Below, one piece after another: positions 8,573 to 33,717 of a DNA stretch of 46,767 nucleotides. The notes under the pieces are model-generated. The model saw only the letters and a list, made by a program, of their open reading frames with translations, made no database searches and was not told the origin of the DNA. Every line of letters starts with the position of its first letter. The stretch's first letter is position 1. This DNA comes from SAR202 cluster bacterium bin87. GTDB lineage: Bacteria > Chloroflexota > Dehalococcoidia > Lucifugimonadales > UBA3495. The DNA lies in assembly GCA_002238825.1 (NCBI GenBank), contig MPNC01000019.1:1-46767 (forward strand), written 5' to 3'. Made by a program: the position numbers and the translations under genes.

Positions 8573-9025
8573 GATGGAGCGGCATGCCGCAATCTAGGCC
8601 CGCGCTGCTGCTAAGGTGAGGATGTTCTGCGGAACCGATAATCTGGCTGAACGCATCATAGACGATCTGTGCGACGGCACCAAGGCACCGAGGCCAGAGA
8701 GCCCTCCGTCTACACACGGTGCCGACAGGATGAGCTGCACCAGCCGCAAGGGGGTGATCAAGCACGCGGACGTTATCACCGTGTTTAACGCGCCGCCGCG
8801 ATCTACCAGAGAACTGGGACCGCCTGCAGGTGGATGGTGCCGGTGGTGAAGCCGACTAAGCGGGCCACCTTATGAGCTGGTCACCACCGGTTCAGATGCC
8901 TAGGTGGTCAGCCTATCCTTGACTTTAGCGTACGCCATCCACGCGGCTCCTTCGGCGTGGACAGCGAGCTTAAGGGTTGGGTCCTCGAATTCGACATTGC
9001 AACCTTGGCACAGACTTCTCTCAGG
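8573..9025. other. Unassigned stretch, probably element debris
   Basis: No gene is supported in these 450 bp. Open frames exist on both strands (for example 8594-8779 minus, 8616-8849 plus), but none has family features, a ribosome binding site or a sensible start. Sequence breaks at 8572 suggest a decayed mobile element. The last 100 bp are the 3' flank of the leftward gene at 9026. Confidence 0.35.
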
Positions 9026-10066
9026 TTATCGAAAATCTCCGTCGCTGGCATCGGCAGTCAACTCCAACTCCTCCCGGATATATTCGCTCAGAGCGGTGGA
9101 GAAGTCTACAGTAAGTTGATTTGTGCATTCAGTCGTCCTGCCCAAGCCCAAGGAGTCCAGTTGACCTCGCCGGATTTCGATAGCTCGCTCGACTATGCGC
9201 TTGAAGTTTTCGAGGTCGAGTTCGCAACCGCATTCGACACAGACCGCTGAGATCTGCTCTTGGAGATGCGAAATGTTTTTCTGCATTTCTGGGGTAAGGG
9301 ATCGCCAAAAATCATAGCAGGTGAGGCGGCGAACCAGCTGTTGGATTCCCCACCGACGGTCATCCTTCTCCCAGCAGCGTTCGCATGGAGGAGCAGTCTC
9401 TCTCACTGGATATTGCCAGTCCTCTACCGTTCGATTGACGGCGACGGTCTCTGCACGCCGTATTTCCTCGAACCTATCGTCCAATGGGCAATGGCGGAAA
9501 TGCTGGTATGCCCTACACAAACCATCGGTCTCGAATTCGTCCACGAATAAGTCAATTCGGGTGCTGGGCCAGATCTTATACGAGACTACGCTTGGCGGCC
9601 AAGCGAGGCGTTCGTATTCGCGAGCTTTCATTACCGCGCCTTCCCGGGAAAGTGTTTCCAGCGCGTTCGCCACGTAGTAGTCGTTTAGCCAACGAGGCTT
9701 TTCGGGAGTGAGGTGCCCAAAATGCAGCCGTGTTGAAGACCGCGGGTCGCTGGTCAAGGAGCGCTCAAACGCTTGGGCATTGACGGACATAACCCGTTCT
9801 TGAATTTGAGCCTTCATGATCCGGTTGGCTCTCCATCGGCGGTACTTTGCCAGTAACCCTAGATATAAGTGCTTCGAAGTTCGCCAGGCCCATTGTCCGG
9901 TCCTCCGCCATAACCATCCCCAGATCTTCCAGCTGGCAATAGCGGATATGAAGCGACTGAGCTGGGTGATCACGGTCAGGAAGAATGCGAATGCACCCAT
10001 GACCGTCATAATCGCGCCCAAATTACCTGTCTTTACGCTCTCCACGATGCCGTTCAGAAATTCCAT
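9026..10066 (-). CDS. Membrane-anchored protein with C-terminal cysteine pairs
   Basis: The product has 346 residues, ATG at 10066 with AGG about 9 bases upstream. Residues 17-45 form one hydrophobic segment (LGAIMTVMGAFAFFLTVI), then an aromatic/basic juxtamembrane region (WLWRRTGQWAWRTSKHLY). The soluble part is charged. It carries two CxxC pairs, CERC (about 227-230) and CVECGC (about 274-279), which could hold a zinc. No family recognised. It is the last gene of the leftward cassette, 195 bp after the HEPN-like gene; that gap contains a 10-bp direct repeat (GCTGGCGATT) but no gene. Membrane anchoring beside a suspected RNase and a P-loop ATPase fits an abortive-infection type cassette, by inference only. 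Confidence 0.5.
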   Translation of the reverse strand: MEFLNGIVESVKTGNLGAIMTVMGAFAFFLTVITQLSRFISAIASWKIWGWLWRRTGQWAWRTSKHLYLGLLAKYRRWRANRIMKAQIQERVMSVNAQAFERSLTSDPRSSTRLHFGHLTPEKPRWLNDYYVANALETLSREGAVMKAREYERLAWPPSVVSYKIWPSTRIDLFVDEFETDGLCRAYQHFRHCPLDDRFEEIRRAETVAVNRTVEDWQYPVRETAPPCERCWEKDDRRWGIQQLVRRLTCYDFWRSLTPEMQKNISHLQEQISAVCVECGCELDLENFKRIVERAIEIRRGQLDSLGLGRTTECTNQLTVDFSTALSEYIREELELTADASDGDFR

Positions 10067-10261
10067 GGGGTATACCTCGGCGAATTTGCCGATATCTGCG
10101 GACTGGTTTTATTCCGAAAACCGCGTGTGCGTTTGCTCGGACCGCGTCGGGATCGAAGGTCTCTAGACCAGGCATGTCAAGCCACTTTCGCCTTGCGGTG
10201 ATTGCGGCAGGGGGTTCACTGATTGTTGGAAGCTGGCGATTGTCAACAGCTGGCGATTATC

Positions 10262-11872
10262 TCAAGTCCCATCCGCGGATTGACGACCGGGAACCGGTTT
10301 AACGGCTTCATCGTACATACTGGTTCTGCTCCGATACAGGTCGGAATAGTCAATCGCTCGAAGCACCAAGAGTTCCAAGTACTCCAGCGTCAGCTGTGAG
10401 TAATTTCGGATATCGTGAAACGTGCCACCTCCAGCATGGGCGTCAAAGTGCGATGCTCGCTGGTCCCTCCAAGCCTTGATGGCATCGATCCCATAATCTT
10501 CATCTATGGGGTTACTACTTCTGGGGGACCCGTACTCAGGCTGCACCACCCAACTGGTCGCCCCTTCTGGCGGATCCTTTACGCCTGTTATGGTTTGGGC
10601 GGCTCCCCAGGAGACGTTCTCGTAAGAGCCAATCCCATGGAACCTTTTTCCGGGCGGGATGCCATGACCACGTAGAAACGCCCCCATTGCGCCCGCTGGC
10701 AAGCGCGCTTTGTCGGGTGTGCCCGACCGCTGCTTGGCCTCGGATTCCAGCGTTGCGAGAGCAGCATTGAGCGCGTCGTGCGGAAGCTCCAGGGACGCTG
10801 CCCTTAGATAACCTTCAAGTATCGGAATGGCTGCTCCGAAACCGTGGCGCTTGTGCAGGCCGGGATCCAAGAAATGAGCCGGTACACCGTTCTCATCGGA
10901 ATGCCGGTCGTAGTCTTCTTGGAAGTGGATCAGGAAGTTGGACGCAAAAGCGGGGAAGTCCATCGGCCATCTCTGGGGAAACCAGGTGAATTTACAGGGG
11001 ACTTGCTTGGCGAATCGCTGTGGCAATTCTGCGTATGACCAGCCGCCGTGATCTCCGTAGCCGATAATGATGTCGGCGGTACGGAAGGCGCCGGAGCAGA
11101 ACCCCAGAAGGTATTCCCATAGATCCACGACCCGATGCCCCTCATTCGCGTCAAGTTCTTGTTTGTCTGTCCTGCCGAAGGAAAAACGGTATTGTCGTCG
11201 GACTCCAGTCGGCCTGGTACCGAGAATGGCATGTGCTCGATCAATCGAACTTTCCAGCTCATAGCTGAACCAATACTCAACCTCCTTACCACCGCGCCGG
11301 TGATCGTTCAGAGAGCAAGTGAAATACGTGCCCGGGTATACGCCAGGCGCGGTATTTCGTTGGCACAACTCTGATTCTCCGAGTGGGGGCAAGCAGGGAA
11401 GGTCGTTGACCGAGAACCACCATTCGTGGCCCGCGGAGTGTTCATCAGAAGCCCACCAGCGATTACTGGTAACCTGCATGACGAAACTGGAAAGTCTTGC
11501 GGGATCGTCGGCGTCGGGGGGATGACGCTCGGGACGCCCTGCCTCGTTCAGGAAGAAGTCTGGCGCCGACATCAACCGGACGTCAAGGTCGTAATGGAAA
11601 CCCTCGGGCAGCATGACACGCAACTGGAGCGGGTCGATCCGGTCGAACCATACTGCGCTGCCGTTGTCGGGATCGTACAACCAGGCCGGGGGTTCATTTG
11701 TATAGGAGACGATAGCCTGCAGGTGATCTTCGTCCGTCGACCGGAGAACAACGCTGTGTGCTTCAGCGAAGTCGTCGCCCCAAGCCAGACCGCCTTTCAG
11801 AACAACGTGGCCGCGTCGCGGATCCACTCTGAAGGGCAGGATCTCCCCAAACAGCTTACGCGCCAGATGCAT
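10262..11872 (-). CDS. Large conserved hypothetical protein with HEPN-like C-terminus
   Basis: The product has 536 residues. The ATG at 11872 is preceded by AGGAGA at good spacing. The N-terminal 250 residues look beta-rich (many Trp, Tyr and Pro: WFDRIDPLQLRVMLPEG, HEWWFSVNDLPCLPP, VEYWFSYELE). This resembles ApeA-type N-terminal domains found before HEPN modules. The C-terminal 150 residues are helical and end with WRDQRASHFD (Arg469-x5-His475) followed by a long helix LTLEYLELLVLRAI. An Rx4-6H motif before a terminal helix is the catalytic signature of HEPN RNases. The HEPN and ApeA comparisons are inference from layout, not proven homology. It is followed by the cytosolic/membrane 9026 gene and preceded at 44 bp by the P-loop gene. 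Confidence 0.55.
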   Translation of the reverse strand: MHLARKLFGEILPFRVDPRRGHVVLKGGLAWGDDFAEAHSVVLRSTDEDHLQAIVSYTNEPPAWLYDPDNGSAVWFDRIDPLQLRVMLPEGFHYDLDVRLMSAPDFFLNEAGRPERHPPDADDPARLSSFVMQVTSNRWWASDEHSAGHEWWFSVNDLPCLPPLGESELCQRNTAPGVYPGTYFTCSLNDHRRGGKEVEYWFSYELESSIDRAHAILGTRPTGVRRQYRFSFGRTDKQELDANEGHRVVDLWEYLLGFCSGAFRTADIIIGYGDHGGWSYAELPQRFAKQVPCKFTWFPQRWPMDFPAFASNFLIHFQEDYDRHSDENGVPAHFLDPGLHKRHGFGAAIPILEGYLRAASLELPHDALNAALATLESEAKQRSGTPDKARLPAGAMGAFLRGHGIPPGKRFHGIGSYENVSWGAAQTITGVKDPPEGATSWVVQPEYGSPRSSNPIDEDYGIDAIKAWRDQRASHFDAHAGGGTFHDIRNYSQLTLEYLELLVLRAIDYSDLYRSRTSMYDEAVKPVPGRQSADGT

Positions 11873-11916
11873 CTCTTCTCCTGTTGACGTGCGCGGTCTC
11901 CGGTCGGCGGACGCTT

Positions 11917-12519
11917 TTAGCCCAAGCGTATGATGTCCTTGTTGAAGGAATTGGTCAGCATCGCAGCGCTTCTGACACTTTGTGGATCAAACGTTTCCAG
12001 GGCGTGCGTGCGCACATCTTGATCCATGAATGCCGAACGGTACAGGTCGGGCAGTTCAGAGAGTTTGGTGTGCCCCTTGGGGATTCGCACGGCTTGCAGG
12101 TTGAATGATGAGAACTCGATGCAGGGAAGCACGATTTCATCAATCCTGTCCAAGAAAACATCCGCAATATCCATCACCTGCTCCACCCTGGTTGTGAGCA
12201 GCACCAAGCAGTCGAGTTCCGTGAGAATCGATACCGCCTGGCTGGTAACTGGATCATCGTCGAAGCTGGGACTGCGTTTTGTTGCCGCTGCTAAATTCGC
12301 GTCCTCAATCAAGACGCTCGCTCCTCGTGGTATTCGGTCGGCTACCTCCAGCAATTCAGTAGGCGAAGCAAGCCTACCGAATAGGGCCGTGCCGTTGCTG
12401 AAAGCTTCGAACCCGGCCTTGTACCTCTCGGATATCCTTAATACCGAGTAGATGGATTTCCCGGACTCGGCTGGTCCGGTGACCAACTCCCACTGGCCCC
12501 TGGTTTCTCCGTGCAACAT
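11917..12519 (-). CDS. Small P-loop ATPase, Zot- or HerA/FtsK-like
   Basis: The product has 200 residues from ATG at 12519 (MLHGETRGQW). Walker A is GPAESGKS (15-22). Walker B-like ASVLIED lies at 67-73. A sensor-like strand LDCLVLLTTR is followed by a DIADVFLDRIDEIVLP segment. This order resembles the compact ATPases of filamentous-phage assembly (Zot/pI) and HerA/FtsK-type motors, but the match is not decisive. The open frame continues upstream without a good start codon to about 12650 and would add a hydrophobic segment (AIAVSAVSGAVLLAG). A membrane-anchored longer form from a rare start is therefore possible. Stop to next start is 44 bp. Confidence 0.55.
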   Translation of the reverse strand: MLHGETRGQWELVTGPAESGKSIYSVLRISERYKAGFEAFSNGTALFGRLASPTELLEVADRIPRGASVLIEDANLAAATKRSPSFDDDPVTSQAVSILTELDCLVLLTTRVEQVMDIADVFLDRIDEIVLPCIEFSSFNLQAVRIPKGHTKLSELPDLYRSAFMDQDVRTHALETFDPQSVRSAAMLTNSFNKDIIRLG

Positions 12520-12656
12520 CGATGGTCCTCCGATTGGGAACGTTGCGCTGGTTAGCCGTTTGCATCCACGTGCCGCGCAACATAGAAAACGTTGGGACAA
12601 TCCGGTGCCGGCCAATAGCACGGCACCGGAGACGGCGGATACCGCAATTGCGGGCG

Positions 12657-12848
12657 TCAGCGCTTCGCGAATGCGAAGTACAGCGTCATTCCCACGCTGA
12701 CGATCAGCGCGATGAATGTCGCAACGGGGTACGCCCGTGCCAGTTCTTGTAGAGTGGCGAACAGTGCATCTATCGCTGGGGGAAGGGCATAAATCCCGAC
12801 AATCACTAGAATCGGCAGTACTGCAACTGCCACCAGGGCGTTGTTCAT
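12657..12848 (-). CDS. Small two-helix membrane protein
   Basis: The product has 63 residues (MNNALVAVAV to FAFAKR). Two hydrophobic helices are obvious: residues 3-25 (NALVAVAVLPILVIVGIYAL) and 40-60 (YPVATFIALIVSVGMTLYF). A short amphipathic, acidic stretch lies between, and a basic C-terminal tail follows. This layout is shared by phage coat-like, holin-like and toxin-like peptides and cannot separate them. It lies between a three-helix membrane protein and the P-loop ATPase in the leftward cassette. Confidence 0.55.
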   Translation of the reverse strand: MNNALVAVAVLPILVIVGIYALPPAIDALFATLQELARAYPVATFIALIVSVGMTLYFAFAKR

Positions 12849-12919
12849 AACTGGTCCTCCGTTGGTGAAGTTGGAAGCTCAGTGCCGGCCCGGACCACAT
12901 GGGCCCGAGTGAGGCTGAG

Positions 12920-13372
12920 CTACTCGTAGACCAACGAAGGATTGATGCCGGCCGTCCATTTACGTCGCCAAGCGATTAGGCGAGTAAGAACGTTCTGCCG
13001 CAGGCGGGTCGTACAGGCCGACAATGGAAGCGGCCGTTCATGGACTCTTCCGAGTAGTAGGTAGCCAATTCGTCGTTTGTCAGCAACGGGGAGCCGACGT
13101 ATCTCTCCAACAGTGGCAGATATCAGGGCGGCAAGGGCAGTGAAAACAGCCCAAATTGCGACCAGATGTTTGACAAGCGGTGTGACCTCTACTGTAGCGT
13201 CAGTTATGAACCCCGCCATCACAGCTGGGGGGTCAGCACCGACCGCGGCGGCGAGCAATCCCAAGCCGATGGTCGCGCCGACCATCACGTAAAGCACAGG
13301 CCGGAACAGCACGATGGCCAACCACACGGACAGGCGAATCCAAAGCGGGTATCTGTGGTTGTCGAGGCCCAT
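12920..13372 (-). CDS. Multi-pass membrane protein, first gene of leftward cassette
   Basis: The product has 150 residues from ATG at 13372 (MGLDNHRYPLW). Hydrophobic segments lie at about 13-45 (LSVWLAIVLFRPVLYVMVGATIGLGLLAAAV) and 66-86 (LVKHLVAIWAVFTALAALIS). The rest is a basic cytoplasmic tail with RRKW. Family not recognised. It is the promoter-proximal gene; a TATGAT -10-like element lies 39-44 bp upstream at 13411-13416. No strong ribosome binding site is visible, so it may be weakly translated or near-leaderless. Confidence 0.5.
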   Translation of the reverse strand: MGLDNHRYPLWIRLSVWLAIVLFRPVLYVMVGATIGLGLLAAAVGADPPAVMAGFITDATVEVTPLVKHLVAIWAVFTALAALISATVGEIRRLPVADKRRIGYLLLGRVHERPLPLSACTTRLRQNVLTRLIAWRRKWTAGINPSLVYE

Positions 13373-13410
13373 GTTTCAATTTTATCAGGAAACGGTTTAG
13401 TTTCGGACGG

Positions 13411-13475
13411 ATCATAGGTCGCTCGTATATGTGCCAACAATATCGTTGCCAACAATATCGTTGCCATGGTATTCT
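13411..13475. promoter_or_regulatory. Divergent promoters around a tandem 15-bp operator-like repeat
   Basis: CCAACAATATCGTTG occurs twice in direct abutment (13434-13448, 13449-13463). The core CAACAATATCGTTG is itself a near-palindrome, 12 of 14 positions symmetric. Rightward, TTGCCA (13446-13451) and TATTCT (13470-13475) with an 18-bp spacer form a fair sigma-70-type promoter for the 13513 gene. Leftward, TTGGCA (13437-13432) and TATGAT (13416-13411), spacer 15, face the 13372 gene. The repeats cover or touch both -35 elements, so one dimeric repressor could silence both operons. No regulator gene is visible next to it. Confidence 0.6.
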
Positions 13476-13512
13476 GATGGCGTCACCATGAATTGGTCGG
13501 GCTGGAGATTCA

Positions 13513-14757
13513 ATGACGACACTACGGACAAGCAGCAATTGGGTCGATGGAGACCGCTTCTTCGACCGTGAGGCGGAACTGCAATTGTTGCGCGAACGGG
13601 TGGAGAACGGAACCCACACGTTGTTGACTGCCCAGCGCCGCATGGGAAAGACGAGCTTGGTGCGTGAACTCCTGCGTCGGTTGGATGAGACAGGCGAGTT
13701 TGCGACAGTGTTCGTGGATTTGGAAGGCGCCATGGACGCCGCGGATGCTGTCGCCGAGATGGCCAGCCAAGCCCGGTCACTTCAGGACGTTCGGGGTAGG
13801 ATAATGTCGTGGGCGAGCAACAGTCTTCGGGGCGTTCTCGACAACGTTGAGGAGCTGGGCGTTTCCGAGTTTCGGGTAAGACTTCGCGGGGGGATTGATG
13901 CCGGGAACTGGCAGCGGATCGGTGATCAGGTGTTTGAAGCTTTGGCGTCCAACGAGCGTCCGGTGGTGCTGGCCGTCGACGAGTTGCCCATACTAATCAA
14001 CCGTTTGCTGAAGGGGCACGAGTACCACATCACCGCCGAACGTCTGTCGGTTACCGACAGTTTCATGGGGTGGTTGAGGAGGTGCTGCCAGGCGCATCAG
14101 GGACAGGTCTGCCTGATTATCTCGGGGAGCGTCGGGCTGGAGCCAGTTTTAAGCCAAGCCAGGCTCAGCGCCCATGCGAATGTCTATGAGCCTTTTGACC
14201 TGAGAGCCTGGGACCATGATGTTGCCGCCGATTGCCTGTCGGCGTTGGGTCGGGGGCACGGGATAGAGCTTCCTGAGGAGGTGCAGCGTGAGATGTGCCT
14301 GCGTCTGCGCTGCTGCGTTCCCCATCACGTTCAGCGATTTTTCCATCACATCTATGAGCATCTAGTTAGGAATCAGCGCCACGAGGCGACCCTGGACGAC
14401 GTTGATCTCGTGTACCAGCGGGACCTGCTCAGCGTCAGGGGTCAAAGGGACTTGGTTCACTACGAGGAACGGCTGCGGATGGTCCTGGGGGACGAGGGCT
14501 ATACCGACGCTCTGAGCCTGCTGTCCGAGGCTGCGGTGAATGGCGGACTGCTTACGCACCCGGTGGTTGACCTCTACCGCGATGAATCGGCCACCAGAGG
14601 GGAGGGTGACGGCATGGCCGGCGTGCTTTATGTCCTGCAGCATGACGGATACCTGGAGGAATGCGCGGGCGGATATGGCTTCGTTTCCGGTTTGCTGGAG
14701 GACTGGTGGCGTGCCAGGTATGGACGACAATTCACTCCAATCACGCAACGGCAGTAG
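13513..14757 (+). CDS. AAA+/STAND-type ATPase
   Basis: The product has 414 residues, ATG at 13513 with CTGGAG just upstream. Walker A TAQRRMGKTS (39-48) and Walker B VVLAVDELP (151-158) belong to the archaeal-type/STAND ATPase clade that often acts as a sensor or switch. The middle has a sensor-like strand LIISGSVGLE. The C-terminal 150 residues are helical and winged-helix-like (TDALSLLSEAAVNGGLL, VLYVLQHDGYLEE). It is the first gene of a three-gene operon; the next gene starts 17 bp downstream. Together with the following ATPase it could gate the restriction enzyme encoded last. This role is inference. The stop is TAG. Confidence 0.75.
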   Translation: MTTLRTSSNWVDGDRFFDREAELQLLRERVENGTHTLLTAQRRMGKTSLVRELLRRLDETGEFATVFVDLEGAMDAADAVAEMASQARSLQDVRGRIMSWASNSLRGVLDNVEELGVSEFRVRLRGGIDAGNWQRIGDQVFEALASNERPVVLAVDELPILINRLLKGHEYHITAERLSVTDSFMGWLRRCCQAHQGQVCLIISGSVGLEPVLSQARLSAHANVYEPFDLRAWDHDVAADCLSALGRGHGIELPEEVQREMCLRLRCCVPHHVQRFFHHIYEHLVRNQRHEATLDDVDLVYQRDLLSVRGQRDLVHYEERLRMVLGDEGYTDALSLLSEAAVNGGLLTHPVVDLYRDESATRGEGDGMAGVLYVLQHDGYLEECAGGYGFVSGLLEDWWRARYGRQFTPITQRQ

Positions 14758-14774
14758 GTACTAAGGGTTCTGCT

Positions 14775-16928
14775 ATGGTGACCGGTATCAAGAAATACAA
14801 CCCGGGCTTCCTCAGCGACGACGAGATCGTGGCGTCCTTCTGCGTAAGGAACGCCGAATTGGAGTCTCTCCTGGAATCCCTGTACTCCAGCACCGGCAAT
14901 TCCAACGCGCACTCCTTGGTCATTGGGCCCAGGGGCAGCGGCAAGAGCCATCTGCTGTTACGCGTGGCGGCTGAGATCCGGCGCAATGAGTCGCTATCAG
15001 GGTTCTACCCCATCGTATTCGCCGAGGAGAGCTACGAGGTTTCCACCATCGGGGAGTTTTGGCTGGGATGTCTGGAGTACCTGGCGGAGCAGGCTGTGGA
15101 AGAGGAGCGGGCTGACCTGCGGCTGTCTCACGGCGACCTGCGGACCGTCCGTGATGATCGGGAGTTAGCCAATCGCTGCCTTGGATCCATTCTGGACTAT
15201 GCGGACCGTCATGGTAAGCGGATGGTGTTGGTGGTGGAGAACCTGAACATGCTCTTCGCCGACATGGGCGATCCTGACGCCGGCTGGCGGTTACGGCACA
15301 CGCTGCAGACCGAGCCGCGGATAGTCCTGCTGGGCAGCGCCACCAGCAGGTTCGACGAGATTGACCATCCTGACCATGCGCTGTATGACCTATTTCGCGT
15401 GGTCACCCTGCATCCTCTGGATATCGGGGAATGCGTATCGTTATGGCGAACTGTATCAGGGCGGGAAGCTGAGGAACGTGTGGTCAGGCCTCTGCAGATT
15501 CTCACCGGCGGCAATCCGCGCCTGCTTGCCATCATCGCCCGATTTGGCGCCGGGAGTTCGTTCGATGATTTGATGGACAGCCTGCTGGACCTGGTTGATG
15601 ATCACACCGAGTACTTCAAGAGTCATCTGGAATCGCTGCCACCGCAGGAACGGCGAATTTACCTGGCGTTGGCCACGCTGTGGAGGCCGGCCACTGCCAG
15701 GGAGGTCGCCGAACAGGCGCGGATGGATGTCAATGTCACGAGTGCGTTGCTCAAGCGCTTGGTGGAGCGCGGCGCGGTTACCATCGATGGAGGGACGCCG
15801 CGCCGAAGGCAGTACTATCTGACCGAGCGTCTCTACAACATCTACTACCTCCTGCGCCGGGGTAGTGGCGAGAGCCAGGTGGTGAAGGCGCTGATAGATT
15901 TCATGGCCTGTCTGTACTCGCCCGCGGTGGTTTGGGACGCCTTCAGCGGCGCCATCCGGCACGTTCCTGATGTCCGTACTTTGCGTCCGCGTTTGGCGGA
16001 TTTATTTGCGGAGAGGATGCTGGACGAGGCAGACCACCTGGCGGAACTGGGGCAAACGGAAGACGCCCTGGCGGTTCATGACGATATCATCCGCCGGCTG
16101 ACCGGGGACGACGAATGCGTGACCAGCGGCTGGATCGCTATGGTGCTGATGGAGAAGATGCAACTATTGCGCGAGTCCGGCCGGGATCTCGAGGCGATGG
16201 CCATCTGCGATGATCTGATCACCTGCTTTGGCGGCCGTGAGGAGGTCCGGTGCGTTCTCGCCGTAACGGTCGCTCGAAACTTCAGGGCCTTGGCGTCGCT
16301 CGATGCAGGCCAGACCTCTGCGGTCGTGTCGCAGTTGGACCAGTCTCTGGCTCAACTCTGCGGCATGACAACTCCCTTGAATGGGTTGGATGGGTTAGAT
16401 GGGTTGGGAGAAGGCGTCTCGTTCTTTACCAAGGGGGTTGTCCTCATGCGTGCGGGGCAGTTACCGGCGGCCGCGGCCGCATTCGATGAGGTAGTGGCTA
16501 GGGAGGAGGCGCTGGAGGAATGGGGTTCGATTGGTTTGGTGGCGGCAGCGTTGGAGTTCAAGGAGACTGCCTTGGATACGCCGATCAGCGAGGAGGAAGC
16601 ATCGACGCTGCTGAGATGCCTGGCGCAAACAGGCGAGATCGATGTGGTCGCCATGAGAGCCTTATTGCAATTCACGGTCCGGGCGGGGGCCCACAGGGCA
16701 CTTGAAATATTTGAAGCATCACAGGCCTGTGCATTGTTGCTGCCTTTGGTTACGGCATTGCGACAAGGCATCGGTCAGGCTACGCATGTGGCGAAAGAAG
16801 TCGATGAGGTCGCGGAGGATGTGCGGCAGGAGTTACTCACCATTGAACTTACCGTCCCGGAGGGGGTCTTTATCGCTGACGTCCCACTCCAGACAGCGGA
16901 TGACGTAGATTACCCAACTGGATGTTGA
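14775..16928 (+). CDS. STAND-type ATPase with C-terminal helical repeats
   Basis: The product has 717 residues from ATG at 14775 (MVTGIKKYNPGF). An open frame extends further upstream but overlaps the previous gene, so this start is preferred. Walker A is GPRGSGKS (51-58). The Walker B-like strand is RMVLVVENLN (149-158), with Glu-Asn in place of the common Asp-Glu. A winged-helix segment lies at about 300-370 (TAREVAEQARMDVNVTSALL). Residues 430-690 are TPR-like helices (LAELGQTEDALAVHDDII, RESGRDLEAMAICDDLI). Such C-termini usually bind a trigger or partner. It sits between the first ATPase (17 bp) and the MmeI-like enzyme (15 bp). A G-rich tandem repeat (GGGTTGGATGGG-like, 16382-16408) encodes NGLDGLDGLG. 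Confidence 0.75.
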   Translation: MVTGIKKYNPGFLSDDEIVASFCVRNAELESLLESLYSSTGNSNAHSLVIGPRGSGKSHLLLRVAAEIRRNESLSGFYPIVFAEESYEVSTIGEFWLGCLEYLAEQAVEEERADLRLSHGDLRTVRDDRELANRCLGSILDYADRHGKRMVLVVENLNMLFADMGDPDAGWRLRHTLQTEPRIVLLGSATSRFDEIDHPDHALYDLFRVVTLHPLDIGECVSLWRTVSGREAEERVVRPLQILTGGNPRLLAIIARFGAGSSFDDLMDSLLDLVDDHTEYFKSHLESLPPQERRIYLALATLWRPATAREVAEQARMDVNVTSALLKRLVERGAVTIDGGTPRRRQYYLTERLYNIYYLLRRGSGESQVVKALIDFMACLYSPAVVWDAFSGAIRHVPDVRTLRPRLADLFAERMLDEADHLAELGQTEDALAVHDDIIRRLTGDDECVTSGWIAMVLMEKMQLLRESGRDLEAMAICDDLITCFGGREEVRCVLAVTVARNFRALASLDAGQTSAVVSQLDQSLAQLCGMTTPLNGLDGLDGLGEGVSFFTKGVVLMRAGQLPAAAAAFDEVVAREEALEEWGSIGLVAAALEFKETALDTPISEEEASTLLRCLAQTGEIDVVAMRALLQFTVRAGAHRALEIFEASQACALLLPLVTALRQGIGQATHVAKEVDEVAEDVRQELLTIELTVPEGVFIADVPLQTADDVDYPTGC

Positions 16929-16943
16929 GGATCACGACTATCG

Positions 16944-19814
16944 ATGATGCCGACTATGACACCTCAGGATTTTGTCGGACGCTGGAGCAAGGCAGGGTTC
17001 GGCGAACGGCAGGGTGCGCAGCCCTTTTTCATCGACCTCTGCGCCGTCGTGGGCCATCCGACGCCGGCCGCGTACGGGGACCCGGAGCGGTTTACGTTCG
17101 AGAAATGGGTCCCGGGCGGCTTCGCCGACGCGTACTTCGAGGAGCACTTCGGCTGGGAATTCAAGGGTCGGGACGCTCAGCTGGACGGGGCGTTCGACCA
17201 ACTGCTGCGCTACCAGGTCCACCTGAAGACCCCGCCGCTGCTCATCGTGTCGTCCTTCCAGACGATACGGATCCAGACCAATTTCCCGGGAATGGAGACG
17301 GGCCGCTACGACCTCGGCATTGAGGAACTGACGCAACCAGAGCGGCTGGATATCCTGAGGGACGTGTTCGTCGCGCCGCACCGGTTCCGAGAACGGTTGC
17401 GATCGGTGGACGTGGTGACGCGAGAGACGGCGTCGTTGTTCCAGTCCATTGTGGTGGATATGGAGGAGCGGAACGAGGATCCGGAGCGGCTGGCGCGCTA
17501 TCTCAATCAGTTGGTCTTCTGTCTGTATTCCGAGGACGCGGGACTTCTGCCCGACGGACTGTTCAGTCGCATCGTTCGGCAATACCACAGGGATCCGGCG
17601 ACCTTCGACCGGGCGATACGGAGCCTGTACGCGCAGATGGCGACCGGCGGGTTCTCCGGCGCGGACGAGATTGCGCACTTCAACGGCGACCTCTTCAACG
17701 TCGTGGACACCGTGGAACTGAGCACGGTAGCGCTGCAGCGGCTGGGCGAGGCCTGTGAGCGGAACTGGCGAGACATAGAGCCGTCCATATTTGGCACCCT
17801 GTTCGAGCGGGCGCTGGACGCGTCGAAGAGAGCACAGACGGGTGCGCACTACACCGGAGCCGACGACATCGAGTTGGTGGTGGAGCCGGTGGTGATGGCG
17901 CCGCTGCGTCGGGAGTGGGAGGAAACGAAGGCTAGTGTCGACGATCTGCTGGACGCGGAACATGGCTCTAGCGTCGCGCTGGCGACGACGGAGGCGGAGG
18001 CGATCATTCGACGGGCCCAGCGTGGACAGCTGGCGGGGCCGACGGGACCCGACCCCCCGAACGTGTTGGCCAACGCGCCACGGATCAGGGCAAGGCTGCT
18101 GCTGGATGAGTTCCAGGATCGCCTGGCGTCGGTAAAGGTTCTGGATCCTGCGTGCGGGAGCGGAAACTTCCTCTATATTGCGCTCCGGTCGCTGCTGGAC
18201 CTCGAGCTGGAGGTGATCGACTTCGCGGCAGTGCGGGGATGGCACGGGTTGACTCCCAGGGTGCAGACAAACCAGATGTTGGGACTGGAGATCAACCACT
18301 ACGCGGCAGGGTTGGCGCGGACGGCGCTGTGGATCGGCTACATCCAGTGGCACCAGTCCAACGGCTTCCCGTACACGCAGCGTCCGATCCTGACGCCGCT
18401 GAACACGATACGGCAGACGGACGCGATACTGGACCTGAGCGATCCTGACAATCCAGTGGAACCGGTGTGGCCGGCGGCGGAGTTCATCGTGGGGAACCCG
18501 CCGTTTCTAGGAGGCAAGCTGCTGCGCACCGGCCTGAATGACGGGTACGTGGAGGCGCTGTTCAAACAGTACCACGGCAAGGTGCCGGCCGAGGCAGACT
18601 TGGTGTGTTACTGGTTCGACAAGACGCAGCGGGAGATCGAAATCGGGACGACCAAACGGGCGGGCCTACTGGCAACGCAGGGGATACGGGGCGGCGCAAA
18701 CCGGAAAGTTTTGCAGCGCATCAAGGAGACCGGCGATATTTTCATGGCGTGGTCGGATCACCCATGGGTGCTGGAAGGGGCCGCGGTGCACATATCTATT
18801 GTCGGCTTCGATGACGGCACGGAGTTGGAGCGGGCGCTGGATGGGCAACCGGTTACGGCGATAAACTCCAACCTGACGGTGGGGGTCGACCTGATGGTGG
18901 CCAAACGGTTGGCAGAAAATCTCGGTATCGCGTTCATGGGGGACACGAAGGGTGGACCGTTCGACATTCCCGATGAATTGGCGCAAGAAATGCTCAGCAG
19001 CCCCAACCCGCATGGTAAAGGAAACGAGGATGTGGTTCGTCCCTGGGTGAATGGCCGGGACATAACAAACCGTTCCAGAGGAATGTGGATCGTTGACTTC
19101 GAGGATATGCCCATCGATCAAGCTGCGCTTTACGAATCACCGTTTGAATACGTGAACACTCATGTACGGCCAATGAGAGAGCGCTCTCGATCAACGATTG
19201 CAAGCTGGTGGCTGCACGAGCGTCCTCGGCCAGAGATGAGGACAGCCCTGGCCGGTATTCACCGTTACATCGTCACACCGCGCGTATCCAAACACCGGCT
19301 TTTTTCATGGATTGGAAGCGACACACTCTCCGACAGTGCGATAATCACGTTTGCCAAGGACGACGACTACACATTCGGCGTGTTGCACTCGCGTTTTCAC
19401 GAGCTTCGGGCGTTAGCTATGGGGACACAGTTGGAAACGCGCCCACGTTACACGCCGACAACGTGCTTTGAGACGTTCCCCTTTCCACAGCCGGCGGACG
19501 AGCAGAGGGAGGCAATCGGCGCGGCGGCAGCCGAGTTGAATCGGCTACGCGAAGGCTGGCTGAATCCGAAGGGCGTTACTGCAGCACAACGACGAAGGCG
19601 GACACTGACGAACTTGTACAACGACCGACCGACTTGGCTGGAGAACATCCACGCCCGCCTCGATGCGGCGGTGGCCGACGCTTACGGGTGGGCAACGGAT
19701 CTGCCAGATGCAGAGATCTTGGAGCGACTGCTGATGCTGAACCTAAAGAGAGCAGCAGCGGAAACCCGATTCGAAGGGACTACAGCGGGGTCGATTGTCT
19801 TGGGTGAGCAGTGA
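16944..19814 (+). CDS. MmeI-like single-chain restriction-modification enzyme
   Basis: The product has 956 residues from ATG at 16944. Layout: N-terminal PD-(D/E)XK nuclease with Asp62-x9-Glu72-x-Lys74 (GFADAYFEEHFGWEFKG), the spacing known from MmeI; a helical linker (about 120-380); an N6-adenine methyltransferase with motif I DPACGSGNF (401-409) and motif IV NPPF (518-521); and a target-recognition region (about 650-850) with GIHRYIVTPRVSKHR. A C-terminal helical domain contains DRPTWL. Enzymes of this type (type IIL/IIG) methylate and cut with one polypeptide using SAM. All catalytic residues seem present. It is last in the operon after two ATPases, which are not normal partners of MmeI enzymes. 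Confidence 0.85.
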   Translation: MMPTMTPQDFVGRWSKAGFGERQGAQPFFIDLCAVVGHPTPAAYGDPERFTFEKWVPGGFADAYFEEHFGWEFKGRDAQLDGAFDQLLRYQVHLKTPPLLIVSSFQTIRIQTNFPGMETGRYDLGIEELTQPERLDILRDVFVAPHRFRERLRSVDVVTRETASLFQSIVVDMEERNEDPERLARYLNQLVFCLYSEDAGLLPDGLFSRIVRQYHRDPATFDRAIRSLYAQMATGGFSGADEIAHFNGDLFNVVDTVELSTVALQRLGEACERNWRDIEPSIFGTLFERALDASKRAQTGAHYTGADDIELVVEPVVMAPLRREWEETKASVDDLLDAEHGSSVALATTEAEAIIRRAQRGQLAGPTGPDPPNVLANAPRIRARLLLDEFQDRLASVKVLDPACGSGNFLYIALRSLLDLELEVIDFAAVRGWHGLTPRVQTNQMLGLEINHYAAGLARTALWIGYIQWHQSNGFPYTQRPILTPLNTIRQTDAILDLSDPDNPVEPVWPAAEFIVGNPPFLGGKLLRTGLNDGYVEALFKQYHGKVPAEADLVCYWFDKTQREIEIGTTKRAGLLATQGIRGGANRKVLQRIKETGDIFMAWSDHPWVLEGAAVHISIVGFDDGTELERALDGQPVTAINSNLTVGVDLMVAKRLAENLGIAFMGDTKGGPFDIPDELAQEMLSSPNPHGKGNEDVVRPWVNGRDITNRSRGMWIVDFEDMPIDQAALYESPFEYVNTHVRPMRERSRSTIASWWLHERPRPEMRTALAGIHRYIVTPRVSKHRLFSWIGSDTLSDSAIITFAKDDDYTFGVLHSRFHELRALAMGTQLETRPRYTPTTCFETFPFPQPADEQREAIGAAAAELNRLREGWLNPKGVTAAQRRRRTLTNLYNDRPTWLENIHARLDAAVADAYGWATDLPDAEILERLLMLNLKRAAAETRFEGTTAGSIVLGEQ

Positions 19815-19989: not shown

Positions 19990-21699
19990 CCCGAATCCAC
20001 CGAAGGGATGCGGAGGTGCCGGTCAGACGAGGGACCGGGTCCAGTGAATGGATTTGCGAGGCCCTGATGCCGATAGAAATGGACGGTGCGGAGTGCGGCT
20101 GCCACGCCAGGGGGATTTTGACGGCCCGTGGTAGCGACGCTGGGAGCGATTTTCAGTGCCGACCGGAGGCGGAGGGCGTCAGGGGCCCAGCCTGACGCAG
20201 GTCGGCCAGGCGGTGGGTAATCCGGTGGAGGGGTCGGACGCCATGAATGGCGTCAGGATGGAAGGGGTAGGGCGCGCAGTTTGGCGAGAGCGCTGCTGAA
20301 CTGGTTTTGCCAGGGCCAGCCCTGAGGGAGATGCAGGGTGATGCGGCGTGCCTTGCGGGTGATGCGTCCGGCCAGGGAGAAGAAACGTCGCCTGAGGGTC
20401 TTGGTGGTGATCACCGGCTCGCCCAGACCGATGCGTGTGGTCCAGCGGGCCAGATTATGGGCCAGCACCTGCACTGCCAGCCAGGCGGCGTTGGCGGCGA
20501 AACGGCCCGAGGGGAGATGATTGAGCCCGACGCCGTACTTGAGATCGCGGATGGCGTTCTCGATCTCGGCGTGGCGGCGATGGTCGGCCTCCAGGTACAG
20601 GGTGTCGCCGTCCCGGTCGGTGATGAAGGCGTGATAGCTGTAGTCGGCAAGCAGCGCAAGTTGGGAGCCGGGCGTGGGCTGCACCCTTCGTACAATGAGA
20701 CGCACCGCCACGGCATCGGGCTCATGCTGGAAAGGAACGTAGGTTGTCTCGGCCACGTCGGCAGCGCCCTCCATCCAGTACGGGATGGGTGTCCAGTCCG
20801 CCTCGGGTATGGCTTCGATGATGTTGCGCAGGCTCTGGTGCTGTCGGGCGGTGATGGAGAAACGGACCTTCGCCTTGCGGCAGGCGGCGACGATGTCGTG
20901 GGTGTAGAAGCCGCTGTCGGCCCGCAGGGTGAGTTGACCGGTGGCACCGGCGTAGCGCACGCGGCTCACCGTCTCCCGCAGGAAGTGGGCGGCGCCCCGG
21001 GCGGTGTTGGCCCGTCCCTTGCGCAGCCGTGCCATCAGCACCTCTCCGGTGCCCGCAGCCACGGCGAACAGCGGGTGATAGCCCCGCTGACCAGCGTAGT
21101 TGTGGCTCTGTGCGCCCTCCTTGGCAAGACCGTAAGTCTCGCAGACGGTGGAATCAAGGTCGATGGTGAACGGATCATCGCCTGGTCCGTCCCCAACAGC
21201 CCAGGCCCCAGCCAGAAACTCACGGCCCACCCGATCCAACTGGCGCACATGGCCCCACCGGGAGCTGCACAGAAAGGTAGCCAGCGTGGATAGCGCCTTG
21301 ACCACGCAGCCCAGCACCCGCCCAACCCCACCAGCGCGCATCGCGTCGGCGTCGTCAATGCAGTCGCCACCGGCCAATGCCGACGCCACCAGGGTCAACA
21401 GTTTGTCTCCAGCATTGGCTCGACCCGGCGCATCTTCCAGGTCAACATGGTTGTCCACCAGCTCGCACAATCCCAGGCGGTGGGCCATCGTGACTGGAAG
21501 CAGCAGTCCGGCATTAGCCACCAGGCGGTGGTCATCGAAGGCGACTTGGATGCGGTCGGGGTCGTTGCGTGGTAGCATCCGTTGGGTGCACCTCGTTTCG
21601 GGTAGGTTTTCTTTGTCAAAAACCATTATCCCCGAAGCGCAGGAGGACTTTTCCATCCCCTCGGCGCACCGCCACACTCATCTTTGCGGTGGATTGGGG
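19990..21699 (-). mobile_element. IS1380-family element, copy A
   Basis: The element is about 1710 bp. Left end CCCGAATCCACCGA (19990-20003) and right end CGGTGGATTGGGG (to 21699) are inverted copies matching copy B. It carries one leftward transposase. Flanking 5-mers are CTAAT (left) and CTTAG (right), which are not identical. Different flanks and an hsdM 3' remnant directly at the right end suggest an adjacent deletion or recombination between IS copies after insertion. Confidence 0.75.
20253..21578 (-). CDS. IS1380-family transposase, copy A
   Basis: The product has 441 residues; ATG at 21578 (MLPRNDPDRIQ) is chosen to agree with the same start and length in copy B. It is a DDE transposase of the DDE_Tnp_1 / IS1380 type. 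Acidic residues are seen in IDLDST, RADSGF and the Glu-rich HAEIENAIRDLKYG block, and the typical YHPLFAVAAGTGEVL segment is present. It is roughly 90 percent identical to copy B by eye. No frameshift or internal stop is seen, so it may be active. An upstream in-frame extension (MWRCAEGMEKSS) reads through the IS leader and is not supported. Confidence 0.85.
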   Translation of the reverse strand: MLPRNDPDRIQVAFDDHRLVANAGLLLPVTMAHRLGLCELVDNHVDLEDAPGRANAGDKLLTLVASALAGGDCIDDADAMRAGGVGRVLGCVVKALSTLATFLCSSRWGHVRQLDRVGREFLAGAWAVGDGPGDDPFTIDLDSTVCETYGLAKEGAQSHNYAGQRGYHPLFAVAAGTGEVLMARLRKGRANTARGAAHFLRETVSRVRYAGATGQLTLRADSGFYTHDIVAACRKAKVRFSITARQHQSLRNIIEAIPEADWTPIPYWMEGAADVAETTYVPFQHEPDAVAVRLIVRRVQPTPGSQLALLADYSYHAFITDRDGDTLYLEADHRRHAEIENAIRDLKYGVGLNHLPSGRFAANAAWLAVQVLAHNLARWTTRIGLGEPVITTKTLRRRFFSLAGRITRKARRITLHLPQGWPWQNQFSSALAKLRALPLPS

Positions 21700-22283: not shown

Positions 22284-23992
22284 CCCCAATCCACCGAAAA
22301 GATGAGCGTGTCGGTGTCGTGAAGCGATAAGAAAGTGCTCCCGGCTTCGGGGATAATGGTTTGTGAAATAGCAAACCGCCCTGAAACAAGGAGCACCCAT
22401 CGGATGCTATCACGCAACGACCCTGACCGCATACAAATCGCCTTTGATGATCACCGCTTGGTGGCCAACGCTGGGCTGCTGCTTCCGGTCACCTTGGCCC
22501 ACCGCCTGGGACTGGGCGAGCTGGTGGACCACCATGTTGACCTGGGAGATGCGCCAGGTCGGGCGAACCCGGGCGATAAGATGATGACCCTGGTGGCGTC
22601 GGCGCTGGCCGGTGGCGACTGCATCGACGACGCCGACGCGCTGCGCGCTGGGGGAACCGAGCAGGTGCTGGGTTGCGTGGTCAAGGCGCCATCCACGTTG
22701 GGAACCTTCCTGCGGAGTTTCCGGTGGGGCCACGTGCGGCAGTTGGATCGGGTGAGCCGGGAGCTGCTGGCTCTGGCCTGGTCCGCTGGTGCGGGACCGG
22801 GCGATGATCCGTTGACCATCGACCTGGACTCCACGGTCTGCGAGACCTTTGGGTTGCTCAAGGAGGGCGCGCGCGACCATAACTACGCCGGCCAGCGAAG
22901 CTATCACCCGCTGTTGGCCGTGGCTGCGGGCACCGGAGAGGTGCTGATGTGTCGGCTACGCAAGGGACGAGCCAACACGGCTCGGGGCGGTGCCCACTTC
23001 TTGCGGGAGACGGTGAGCCGAGTGCGCCACGCCGGCGCCACCGGTCCACTCACCATGCGTGCCGACAGCGGCTTCTACACCCACGACATCGTCGCCGCCT
23101 GTCGCAAGGCGAAAGTCCGTTTCTCCATCACCGCCCGCCAGCACCAGACCCTGCGCAACATCATTGAGGCCATACCCGAGGCAGACTGGACGCCCATCCC
23201 GTACTGGATGGAGGGCGCTGCCGACGTGGCCGAGACAACCTACGTTCCTTTCCAGAGTGAGCCTGATGCCGTGCCGGTGCGGCTCATCGTGCGAAGGGTG
23301 AAGCCCACACCCGGCTCCCAACTTGCGCTGCTTGCCGACTACAGCTATCACGCCTTCATCACCGACCGGGATGGCGACACCCTGGACCTGGAGGCCGACC
23401 ATCGCCGCCACGCCGAGATCGAGAACGCCATCCGCGATCTCAAGTACGGCGTGGGGCTCAACCACCTGCCCTCGGGACGCTTCCCCGCCAACGCCGCCTG
23501 GCTGGCCGTACAAGTACTGGCACACAATCTCGCTCGCTGGACCACGCGCATCGGTCTGGGCGAACCGGCAGTAACCACCAAGACCCTCCGGCGACGCTTC
23601 TTCTCCCTGGCGGGACGCATCACCCGCAAGGCACGCCGCCTCACTCTGCACCTGCCACAGGGCTGGCCCTGGCAGAACCAGTTCAACTCCGCCCTCGCCA
23701 AACTGCGCGCCCTGCCGCTCCCTTCCTGACCCCAACCACGGCGTCTGACCCGTCCGCCAGACTATCTACAGGCTTGGCTGTCCCGCGTCAGGCCGGTCCC
23801 TGTGGTCTCCTGCTGCAATCCGACCGCTGATCTTGCCCGTCGCCGGCACCGCGGTCCGCCAAAATCCCCTTGGCGTGGCTATTACACCCTATGCCCAGCC
23901 GGATTGGAGCAGGTCAAGGCCGCGCCGCCTCGATCCGGCTCCTCTCATCCCTGGCTTCCTCGCGGTGACCAGACCCTGTCGGTGGATTTGGG
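22284..23992 (+). mobile_element. IS1380-family element, copy B, with 5-bp target duplication
   Basis: The element is 1709 bp. Terminal inverted repeats are CCCCAATCCACCGA (22284-22297) and TCGGTGGATTTGGG (23979-23992), one mismatch in 14. CTAAG flanks both sides (22279-22283 and 23993-23997), a perfect 5-bp target duplication. Both ends and the duplication are intact, so this insertion is recent compared with copy A. Confidence 0.85.
22404..23729 (+). CDS. IS1380-family transposase, copy B
   Basis: The product has 441 residues. ATG at 22404 (MLSRNDPDRIQ) is preceded by AAGGAG (22387-22392). Longer in-frame starts (GTG 22335, ATG 22356) lack a binding site. It carries the same DDE landmarks as copy A: IDLDST, MRADSGF and HAEIENAIRDLKYG. 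The frame is uninterrupted and ends LRALPLPS like copy A, so the enzyme is probably functional. Differences from copy A are scattered single substitutions, which suggests two independent arrivals or some time since duplication. Confidence 0.88.
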   Translation: MLSRNDPDRIQIAFDDHRLVANAGLLLPVTLAHRLGLGELVDHHVDLGDAPGRANPGDKMMTLVASALAGGDCIDDADALRAGGTEQVLGCVVKAPSTLGTFLRSFRWGHVRQLDRVSRELLALAWSAGAGPGDDPLTIDLDSTVCETFGLLKEGARDHNYAGQRSYHPLLAVAAGTGEVLMCRLRKGRANTARGGAHFLRETVSRVRHAGATGPLTMRADSGFYTHDIVAACRKAKVRFSITARQHQTLRNIIEAIPEADWTPIPYWMEGAADVAETTYVPFQSEPDAVPVRLIVRRVKPTPGSQLALLADYSYHAFITDRDGDTLDLEADHRRHAEIENAIRDLKYGVGLNHLPSGRFPANAAWLAVQVLAHNLARWTTRIGLGEPAVTTKTLRRRFFSLAGRITRKARRLTLHLPQGWPWQNQFNSALAKLRALPLPS

Positions 23993-24164: not shown

Positions 24165-24722
24165 GTGGTCCAAGCTCCAAGGCACAAAGTTTTCGTCAGC
24201 TTCCACCATGTCGACCAAGCATACAAAGATTGGTTCGTACAGTTCATGGGCGAAGACATGGTTGACCAATCCGTAGAGGACGGCGACATCAACGATGAAA
24301 ACCTCGCAACTGAGACGATTCGTCAGTACATCAGAGACCGCTTCATCCGAGATGCGACAGTCACGGTCGTTCTCGTCGGGTCATGTACATGGCAACGCAA
24401 ACACATCGACTGGGAGATTGGCTCCAGCCTACGCGCCACGCGCCTAAACTCTAGGTGTGGATTACTCGGGATTCTGCTGCCCGGTCACCCTAACCATGGG
24501 CAGACCACATATAACCCAAGACTGGTACCACCTCGTTTGGCGGACAACTGCAACGGCAATGACGCCTACGCGAAAATCTACGACTGGGTCCAAAACCCCG
24601 AGACCATCCGAAACTGGATCCATACCGCGTTCGAGAGAAGGAGCGGTACGCCTCCCAACAATAGCCGCCAGCAGTTCCGTTACAACCGAAGCGGCAATTG
24701 CAATGTTGGATGGTCCTCATGA
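24165..24722 (+). CDS. TIR-like domain protein, ThsB type
   Basis: The product has 185 residues. GTG at 24165 follows AAAGGAG. The first 110 residues match the TIR-like fold of Thoeris ThsB/MTH538 (former DUF1863): HKVFVSFHH at the first strand, DGDIND, IRDRFIRDATVTVVLVG, and TWQRKHIDWEI with Glu84 at the conserved active-site-like place, then LLGILLPG. Thoeris ThsB proteins sense phage and make an NAD-derived signal. No ThsA effector (SIR2/TM-SLOG) is adjacent. The gene lies 17 bp after the IS-broken small gene, so it is the last gene of a damaged operon. The C-terminal 30 residues (PPNNSRQQFRYNRSG) look atypical. Confidence 0.75.
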   Translation: MVQAPRHKVFVSFHHVDQAYKDWFVQFMGEDMVDQSVEDGDINDENLATETIRQYIRDRFIRDATVTVVLVGSCTWQRKHIDWEIGSSLRATRLNSRCGLLGILLPGHPNHGQTTYNPRLVPPRLADNCNGNDAYAKIYDWVQNPETIRNWIHTAFERRSGTPPNNSRQQFRYNRSGNCNVGWSS

Positions 24723-26970: not shown

Positions 26971-27028
26971 GCGCTGCGGCCGGTTACTCTCTGTCAATGG
27001 CGGGTTGTGTCACTTAATCCTGAGAAAC

Positions 27029-27910: not shown

Positions 27911-28061
27911 ATGAAGTGGACTCCCTTCCCATCGTGCCAGTCGCGCAGTTTCCGATGTCCAGCTGATGTGAAAAGCTATGGTCACCTCTGTAATTTTAGC
28001 AGTGAGTTCAATGGAATTTCAGAATGGTCCGGGTTTGGTTTGTCCTCAATGCGGGCGTACA

Positions 28062-33567: not shown

Positions 33568-33717
33568 AAGGCAATTTCTTCTCAACAACCGTGCCTTCGT
33601 CTTATTGACAAAGGACCTAATACAGCCATAGAGCTCGGATAAGAGATTGGACGTTTGCATTGGCATGGATCAAGGATCGGGCTGGTTCCTTTCCATTAGT
33701 TTACTGCAATGAGCATT

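Follow-up and report, generated by a model that had tools for sequence, protein, structure and literature searches.

The window analyzed here, a 46,767-nucleotide stretch of contig MPNC01000019.1 from SAR202 cluster bacterium bin87, contains three co-directional open reading frames on the forward strand that are separated by gaps of only 17 and 15 bp, an arrangement described in an earlier note on this DNA and reproduced when the ORF coordinates were rechecked. The first gene, A1 (positions 13513-14757), encodes a predicted minimal STAND ATPase of 414 aa, the second, A2 (14775-16928), a predicted STAND ATPase of 717 aa with a TPR array, and the third cistron (16944-19814) an MmeI-like type IIL restriction-methyltransferase of 956 aa. 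Terminator-like matches occur at background level in this region, and none of them falls inside either intergenic gap.

Judged by its predicted structure (pLDDT 89), A1 has a STAND NTPase fold, in which a P-loop NTPase, a helical domain and a C-terminal winged helix form an apoptosome/NLR-like arrangement. Its model aligns with the PDB entries 2fna and 2qen at a Z score of 25 and with CED-4 and NRC4 at about 20, and the sequence matches ATPase_2/AAA_22 in domain searches. The Walker A motif reads RRMGKTS, and the canonical Walker B residues DE are invariant in 46/46 aligned rows. The protein ends at the winged helix, before any superstructure-forming repeats, and neither the domain search nor the model revealed a sensor or effector domain. 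A2 is likewise predicted to adopt the STAND fold, with matches to AAA_16, a TrmB-like winged helix and C-terminal TPRs, the repeats that the earlier note had recognized in one of the ATPases; its model shows a Z score of 21 to 2qen and has the STAND-TPR protein 6mfv as the top Foldseek match. Since both proteins share a STAND/ORC fold and are encoded as a conserved pair, the previous description of them as two unrelated P-loop ATPases has to be abandoned.

The individual parts of A2 differ markedly in conservation. Its engine (14775-15929; aa 1-385) is about 63% identical to homologues, and the DNA homology to a second copy of the pair in the same genome, which has its own operator, is restricted to A1 and this engine (13532-15925). 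The Walker A motif is GPRGSGK[ST]. Walker B reads VEN, with E-N in 37/37 rows and [ED]-N in distant homologues, and ATP hydrolysis by A2 is doubtful because the second residue is asparagine throughout. The engine includes a MarR/TrmB-like winged helix (15645-15827; aa 291-351) with a conserved, arginine-rich wing (GGTPRRRQYYL), which represents a candidate DNA-binding domain, although the winged helix of STAND proteins need not bind DNA. The TPR array (15945-16694; aa 391-640) is hypervariable, with about 20% identity, and in relatives of A2 comprises 129-bp units in up to 25.7 copies of 92% identity, making it a candidate sensor. The C-terminal cap (16722-16844) is again conserved (LLLPLxTALxQELG...VAxEVxEVAxDIR; about 45% identity). 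No effector or toxin domain was found in the A2 protein of the window by domain search or in its model.

A1 lies directly upstream of A2 in 77 of 84 A2 loci and in all 12 further loci drawn, and the pair occurs across many bacterial phyla. It is a mobile, horizontally spread gene pair, with no viral carrier detected in one IMG/VR scan; a literature search confined to open-access papers returned no description of it. Its commonest state is to stand alone, and at only a handful of the 84 loci does a genuine gene in the same orientation follow within 30 bp. Several known categories were considered and rejected. The ORC-like fold raised the possibility of a plasmid replication initiator with iterons, but the repeats sit at the promoter in two to three copies and most loci look chromosomal. 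Similarity to MADS is limited to weak mad8/mad2 HMM matches, with no mad operon (mad1-mad8) in the scanned neighbourhood of the pair, and membership in AVAST (Avs) requires a large STAND protein with its own N-terminal effector domain, which neither A1 nor A2 contains.

Upstream of A1, the window contains a tandem palindromic element (13435-13463), absent from the earlier note, that consists of two identical CAACAATATCGTTG units (13435-13448 and 13450-13463) with a 15-bp period. It overlaps a promoter-like sequence (TTGCCA-18-TATTCT; 13446-13475), with the -10-like hexamer situated slightly outside the two palindromes. This putative operator follows a general consensus, CAAC-N6-GTTG in tandem with a 15-bp period, which precedes A1 in 72/89 loci and none of 498 control genes. 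The palindrome itself is present in 84/89 upstream regions, compared to a maximum of 6 in shuffled sequences, and neighbouring palindromes are spaced by exactly 15 bp in 114 cases, with fewer than 10 for any other listed length. A palindrome covers at least part of the -10 box in 41 of 60 predicted promoters. Of the 89 loci, 17 do not show the strict tandem arrangement, although several of these have variant palindromes. Perfect copies occur in this genome only at its two A1 promoters and are lacking in five genomes of the same genus without the pair. Among 16 distinct perfect genomic sites, 15 lie just upstream of A1; the sole perfect tandem site away from A1 promoters (G1029:C22:177463) has no adjoining A1 or A2. 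A wider regulon was dismissed on these grounds, given that perfect tandem sites are found almost exclusively at A1 promoters. Because the operator persists in front of A2 at loci without A1 (L003, L004) and at loci that have lost it (L019, L081), A2 is the likely autorepressor and putative DNA-binding partner.

The third protein matches the full set of five MmeI domains in Pfam, with a score below the cut-off for the C-terminal one, as well as the PADLOC model REase_MTase_IIG (3.5e-252) and the solved MmeI structure 5HR4 (1.2e-49). Its sequence thus predicts an MmeI-like type IIL enzyme composed of a PD-(D/E)xK nuclease, a helical spacer, an N6-MTase, a TRD and a C-terminal domain. The D-x9-E-x-K, DPACGSGNF and NPPF motifs are all there and the frame is intact, in agreement with the complete single-chain restriction-modification (R-M) enzyme previously proposed. 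The family is otherwise solo, as the note had held for MmeI enzymes in general, and this includes L111, a copy of 79% identity within this genome that lacks A1-A2. Nothing like the R-M protein of the window was found among the called genes of 80 further A2 loci, and A1 or A2 adjoins the R-M gene in 0/20 R-M loci opened from the phylum. The link between MmeI and A1-A2 is unique to the window and was seen once. The three-gene order, for which a search in other genomes had been suggested, does not recur at these loci, the outcome that the note had named as refuting its proposal, and these loci together with the solo copy rule out a conserved A1-A2-MmeI system.

At a minority of loci, the pair lies ahead of, beside or fused to Hma, CBASS, DSR2/Avs, PD-Lambda-4/Avs4 or Pycsar components. 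Hma is encoded directly downstream at L019, L022 and L031 and 283 bp away at L079. At the former three loci, the pair or its A2 is located inside an operon of the Hma/DUF499-centred, BREX-related type (PMC12839542), just before the DUF1156 methylase gene; canonical Hma operons, including those on plasmids, lack this insert, and the window has MmeI instead. A one-clade test of the three insertions as a single event gave a p value of 0.06. Further links involve DSR2 and Avs3 (L028), PD-Lambda-4/Avs4 (in Moraxella), PDC-S39 (L017), a fusion of A2 to a CD-NTase (L007) beside CBASS in the same genome and a Pycsar system that shares the operator region (L004). No defence-island enrichment is claimed for the pair, since PADLOC matches are not clearly commoner near it than 5-10 kb away. 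Like controllers of the Cap type, the pair in the window stands at the head of an immune operon and has a conserved operator, but it does not share their habit of mostly lying beside immune operons, as most pairs stand alone.

We infer that A1-A2 may constitute an autonomous STAND switch, encoded by two genes and repressing the promoter of its own operon, which has captured an R-M gene, a reading to which we assign a probability of roughly 50%. It builds on near-obligate pairing, a constant engine with a variable TPR array, co-directional linkage, solo R-M relatives and a conserved operator found almost nowhere outside this operon, all apparent at the sequence level. The A2 winged helix would occupy the tandem palindromes over the promoter and keep the operon low, until the TPR array detects its trigger, probably a molecule that is foreign or linked to damage. 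Binding and exchange of ATP, in partnership with the ATPase A1, would then alter the A1-A2 assembly and release the promoter. As the third cistron, the formerly solo MmeI-type gene would now have its expression tied to this switch, possibly in an anti-phage role. The broader idea behind the earlier suggestion, that the ATPases regulate a defence enzyme, gains support from the several defence links and the dedicated operator, although the level of control shifts: because the pair joins several unrelated defence systems and has its own conserved operator, the evidence points to transcription rather than cleavage. The ATPases could conceivably also add a second line of response once restriction fails, as the note had suggested. 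Post-translational gating of the R-M protein itself, the cleavage control of the note, appears highly improbable. Tight gene linkage fits this idea, as does the fact that certain R-M-like systems employ ATPases of the ORC/STAND kind, DUF499 and BrxC among them (PMC12839542), but MmeI-like enzymes of the same family exist without A1-A2, and the same pair accompanies partners as dissimilar as a cyclase and a protein of the Avs type.

The switch reading has its own counterpoint, because a pure controller of neighbouring genes would often have nothing to control if most pairs stand alone. Also against it are the single occurrence of the MmeI link, the similar PADLOC matches near and far from the pair, the dispensability of DNA binding for a STAND winged helix, the loci without the strict tandem pattern and the position of the -10-like hexamer in the window. 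The stand-alone pair, a complete two-gene unit, would suit a conflict module of the abortive-infection or addiction type that regulates itself and has the ATPase assembly as its output. Like toxin-antitoxin modules, it would enter genomes as well as defence operons, and the R-M gene would be a passenger. The operator is compatible with such a module, tandem palindromes over the promoter being typical of toxin-antitoxin autoregulation, and the L019 insert contains a HigBA-like pair, read from ORFs, while a VapC-type toxin and antitoxin are annotated within a Nostoc Hma operon. However, A1 and the A2 of the window showed neither a toxin nor an effector domain, the fused CD-NTase has kept its catalytic motifs, which resembles coupling more than passenger status, and the methylase gene overlaps the A2 stop codon in three Hma cases, so that we consider this explanation rather unlikely. 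Chance adjacency, with an R-M gene landing behind A1-A2 in a defence island with no functional link, would account for the single known MmeI instance, the two inverted transposase copies just downstream and the homology to L111 at the DNA level, which starts exactly at the ATG (16944). It is nevertheless improbable, as a separate R-M promoter would hardly fit into the 17- and 15-bp spacing and the pair has repeatedly been placed directly ahead of other defence genes.

The proposed self-repressing switch combines features of several known systems. STAND/ORC ATPases with a winged helix include 6mfv, which has a TPR sensor like A2, MalT, and the ORC/Cdc6 heterodimer 2qby, which binds DNA; no origin function is indicated for A1-A2. 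MalT activates via a separate LuxR-type domain. In their genomic behavior, A1-A2 resemble CapK-CapS, CapH-CapP and CapW/BrxR (PMC13373217, PMC9122588, PMC9122601), in which one or two genes head unrelated immune operons and operators lie at their own promoter, with CapK-CapS also forming an obligate gene pair. However, these controllers use WYL, HTH-peptidase or kinase/STAS proteins instead of a pair of STAND ATPases that includes a TPR array, and CapK-CapS mostly precedes an immune operon, whereas the putatively self-repressing A1-A2 does so only in a minority of cases. RptR (PMC12255303) is an autorepressor that acts on tandem palindromes at an R-M operon promoter, as proposed for A1-A2, but it has 79 aa and a single domain, involves no ATPase and is found mostly before type I R-M genes. 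Nuclease-protease pairs (PMC12799240) are equally portable and joined to several unrelated immune systems, yet they are proteolytically activated effectors, as opposed to an ATPase pair with its own operator.

It is tempting to speculate, albeit with less than even confidence, that A1-A2 represent a previously undescribed class of immune controllers: paired-STAND, nucleotide-switched autorepressors whose TPR sensor evolves rapidly and whose tandem operator is conserved. Insertion, capture or gene fusion would have connected them, time and again, to five or more unrelated defence systems (type IIL R-M, Hma, CBASS, DSR2/Avs and Pycsar). The conserved operator makes the switch reading directly testable and provides a sequence signature by which to search for additional members, along with the defence genes under their control. 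If the proposal is true, bacterial NLR-like ATPases would not only be receptors with built-in effectors but also portable, self-repressing gene switches, and inducible control could be extended to defence enzymes of any kind, down to a simple restriction enzyme.

The three reading frames of the earlier note are borne out: they encode the STAND ATPases A1 (13513-14757) and A2 (14775-16928) and an MmeI-like restriction-methyltransferase (R-M; 16944-19814), all on the forward strand of the window. So are the gaps of 17 and 15 bp between them, in which no terminator-like match was found. The note's description of the R-M as a complete single-chain enzyme also holds: all five MmeI domains are present, the protein matches PADLOC type IIG (3.5e-252) and the solved MmeI structure 5HR4 (1.2e-49), and the D-x9-E-x-K, DPACGSGNF and NPPF motifs are retained. 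It is an ordinary and apparently intact type IIL enzyme. Directly downstream lie two transposase-like copies (20253-21677 and 22335-23729), which form 1431-nt inverted arms that are 87% complementary and separated by ~700 nt. The R-M family is common in the phylum (47 of 301 genomes, E <= 1e-60) and solo, with neither A1 nor A2 beside the enzyme in any of 20 R-M loci opened. These include the second R-M copy of the same genome, for which DNA homology (78-80%) sets in exactly at the R-M ATG. No R-M-like gene appeared among the genes called in 80 further A2 loci either. Since the enzyme is solo elsewhere and missing from these A2 loci, the observation that the note named as refuting its idea, ATPase homologues without MmeI-like neighbours elsewhere, holds for MmeI itself; the link is local to the window.

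A1 and A2 are a conserved gene pair. A genome scan with an alignment of the A2 engine (residues 1-385) yielded 80 loci from many phyla, and A1 lies immediately upstream in 77 of 84 A2 loci, with fragments in two more and five lacking it. In all 12 further loci opened, A2 follows A1 in the same orientation, down to A1 scores of ~130 bits, including one (L189) whose A1 was dropped by the gene caller and detected by profile search. A1 is carried by ~1-3% of genomes, as judged from draws of ~200-400 genomes from the window's group and three further groups, and was absent from 59 relatives, among which 13 belong to the window's genus. A literature search of incomplete coverage returned no description of the pair.

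A1 is a minimal STAND ATPase, whose AlphaFold model (pLDDT 89) is nearest to 2fna/2qen (Z 25), followed by CED-4 and plant NLR resistosomes (Z ~20). A2 adds TPRs to this engine, with the STAND-TPR protein 6mfv as its top Foldseek hit, and has a conserved winged helix with an Arg-rich wing. Walker B reads DE in 46/46 A1 and EN in 37/37 A2 proteins ([ED]N in distant A2); judging from these residues, A1 looks hydrolysis-competent and hydrolysis by A2 is doubtful. Identity among A2 proteins is ~0.63 over residues 1-385, ~0.2 over the TPRs and ~0.45 in the short cap, and DNA homology with the second A1-A2 copy of the genome is confined to A1 and the A2 engine (13532-15925). The TPR region forms a DNA-level tandem array in 16 of 84 A2 genes, reaching 25.7 copies of 129 bp at 92% in the 1745-aa A2 of L024, a locus with two convergent A1-A2 pairs (13192-19812 and 8649-12928). 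The constant engine and fast-changing array of A2 look like the pattern of a sensor. The A2 of L025 has a 285-aa C-terminal extension (11609-12466) with no Pfam match.

Palindromes of the CAAC-N6-GTTG type lie 5' of A1 in 84 of 89 loci (shuffled maximum 6), with two or more copies in 78; 114 spacings between neighbouring copies are exactly 15 bp, and a palindrome overlaps the -10 box in 41 of 60 predicted promoters. Strict tandems occur at 72/89 A1 promoters as against 0/498 control genes. The window's genome has perfect tandems only at 13435-13463 and 5' of its second A1; together with the pair-bearing genomes, it places 15 of 16 distinct perfect sites directly upstream of A1, whereas none occurs in five genomes of the same genus that lack the pair. 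The sole perfect tandem found away from the pair (G1029:C22:177463-177491, locus L220 of another genome compared) has no A1 or A2 beside it. Distant pairs show other tandem palindromes, such as ACTAT-N6-ATAGT in Moraxella, identified by eye. Because operator-type sites persist upstream of A2 in loci that lack A1 (L003, L004) or have lost it (L019, L081), they point to A2 as the operator's partner.

Genes starting within 30 bp downstream of A2 comprise the window R-M gene, Hma DUF1156 methylases (L019, L022, L031), a PDC-S39 candidate defence gene (L017) and a PD-Lambda-4/Avs4-like gene in Moraxella; the remaining frames are A2 remnants (L061, L062) or, in our judgement, look non-coding (L051, L085). 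Other loci contain DSR2 and Avs3-like genes (L028, the first of them at 76 bp), an Hma ATPase at a distance of 283 bp (L079), Wadjet JetC further downstream (L025) or Pycsar cyclases divergent from A2 (L004). The sister of the window A2, encoded in the same genome (97% support), is fused to a CD-NTase domain that retains its catalytic motifs and is 82% identical to a CD-NTase further down the locus; with a patatin, an IrrE-like peptidase and an E1-type protein beside it, this neighbourhood is a type II CBASS. Canonical Hma operons on plasmids have the order DUF499, ~160 aa, DUF1156, helicase, without A1-A2. In L019, L022 and L031 the methylase is separated from the 160-aa gene or DUF499 by additional genes, the last of which are A1-A2 (in L019 only A2), and a frame 5' of A1 in L031 begins like the N-terminus of the DUF1156 methylase, an arrangement consistent with insertion. 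Further inserts 5' of the methylase (L022, 3295-8618; L019, 4488-5148), among whose genes are a HATPase protein and a HigBA-like pair, suggest that this stretch is an insertion hotspot.

Within 10 kb the island in the window also encodes two ThsB-type TIR proteins, an SLOG cluster2 protein and one more TIR_2 protein (24165-24722, 30299-30772, 31535-32404 and 32380-33666), which may form a TIR/SLOG signalling cluster. At 24956-27985, a MazG protein and a dCTP deaminase-like frame lie next to a protein with the helical domain of 5-hmdU DNA kinase; these are genes of nucleotide or hypermodification type, here in a bacterial island. A TerY-P-like triad of vWA, PP2C and kinase-TPR proteins (42533-46019) includes many near-identical TPRs in its kinase.

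Most A1-A2 pairs are solitary, with the next gene on the opposite strand in 35 cases and a contig edge in 15. As most have no effector next to them, A1-A2 could be a conflict module in its own right, which we consider the less likely reading. The overall pattern, with its tandem operators over the A1 promoter, fits an autorepressed operon. An A2-containing complex would cover the promoter, a trigger sensed through the TPRs would open it, and the window R-M gene would be the third cistron; A1-A2 would bind and repress its own operon and may have an anti-phage role. The pair belongs to neither Avs nor MADS, and it lies outside the protein families of the systems that it resembles. Its mobility is reminiscent of nuclease-protease pairs (PMC12799240) and its proposed working is similar to that of RptR (PMC12255303) and of CapW/BrxR, CapH-CapP and CapK-CapS, which control the immune pathways encoded next to them (PMC9122588, PMC9122601, PMC13373217).
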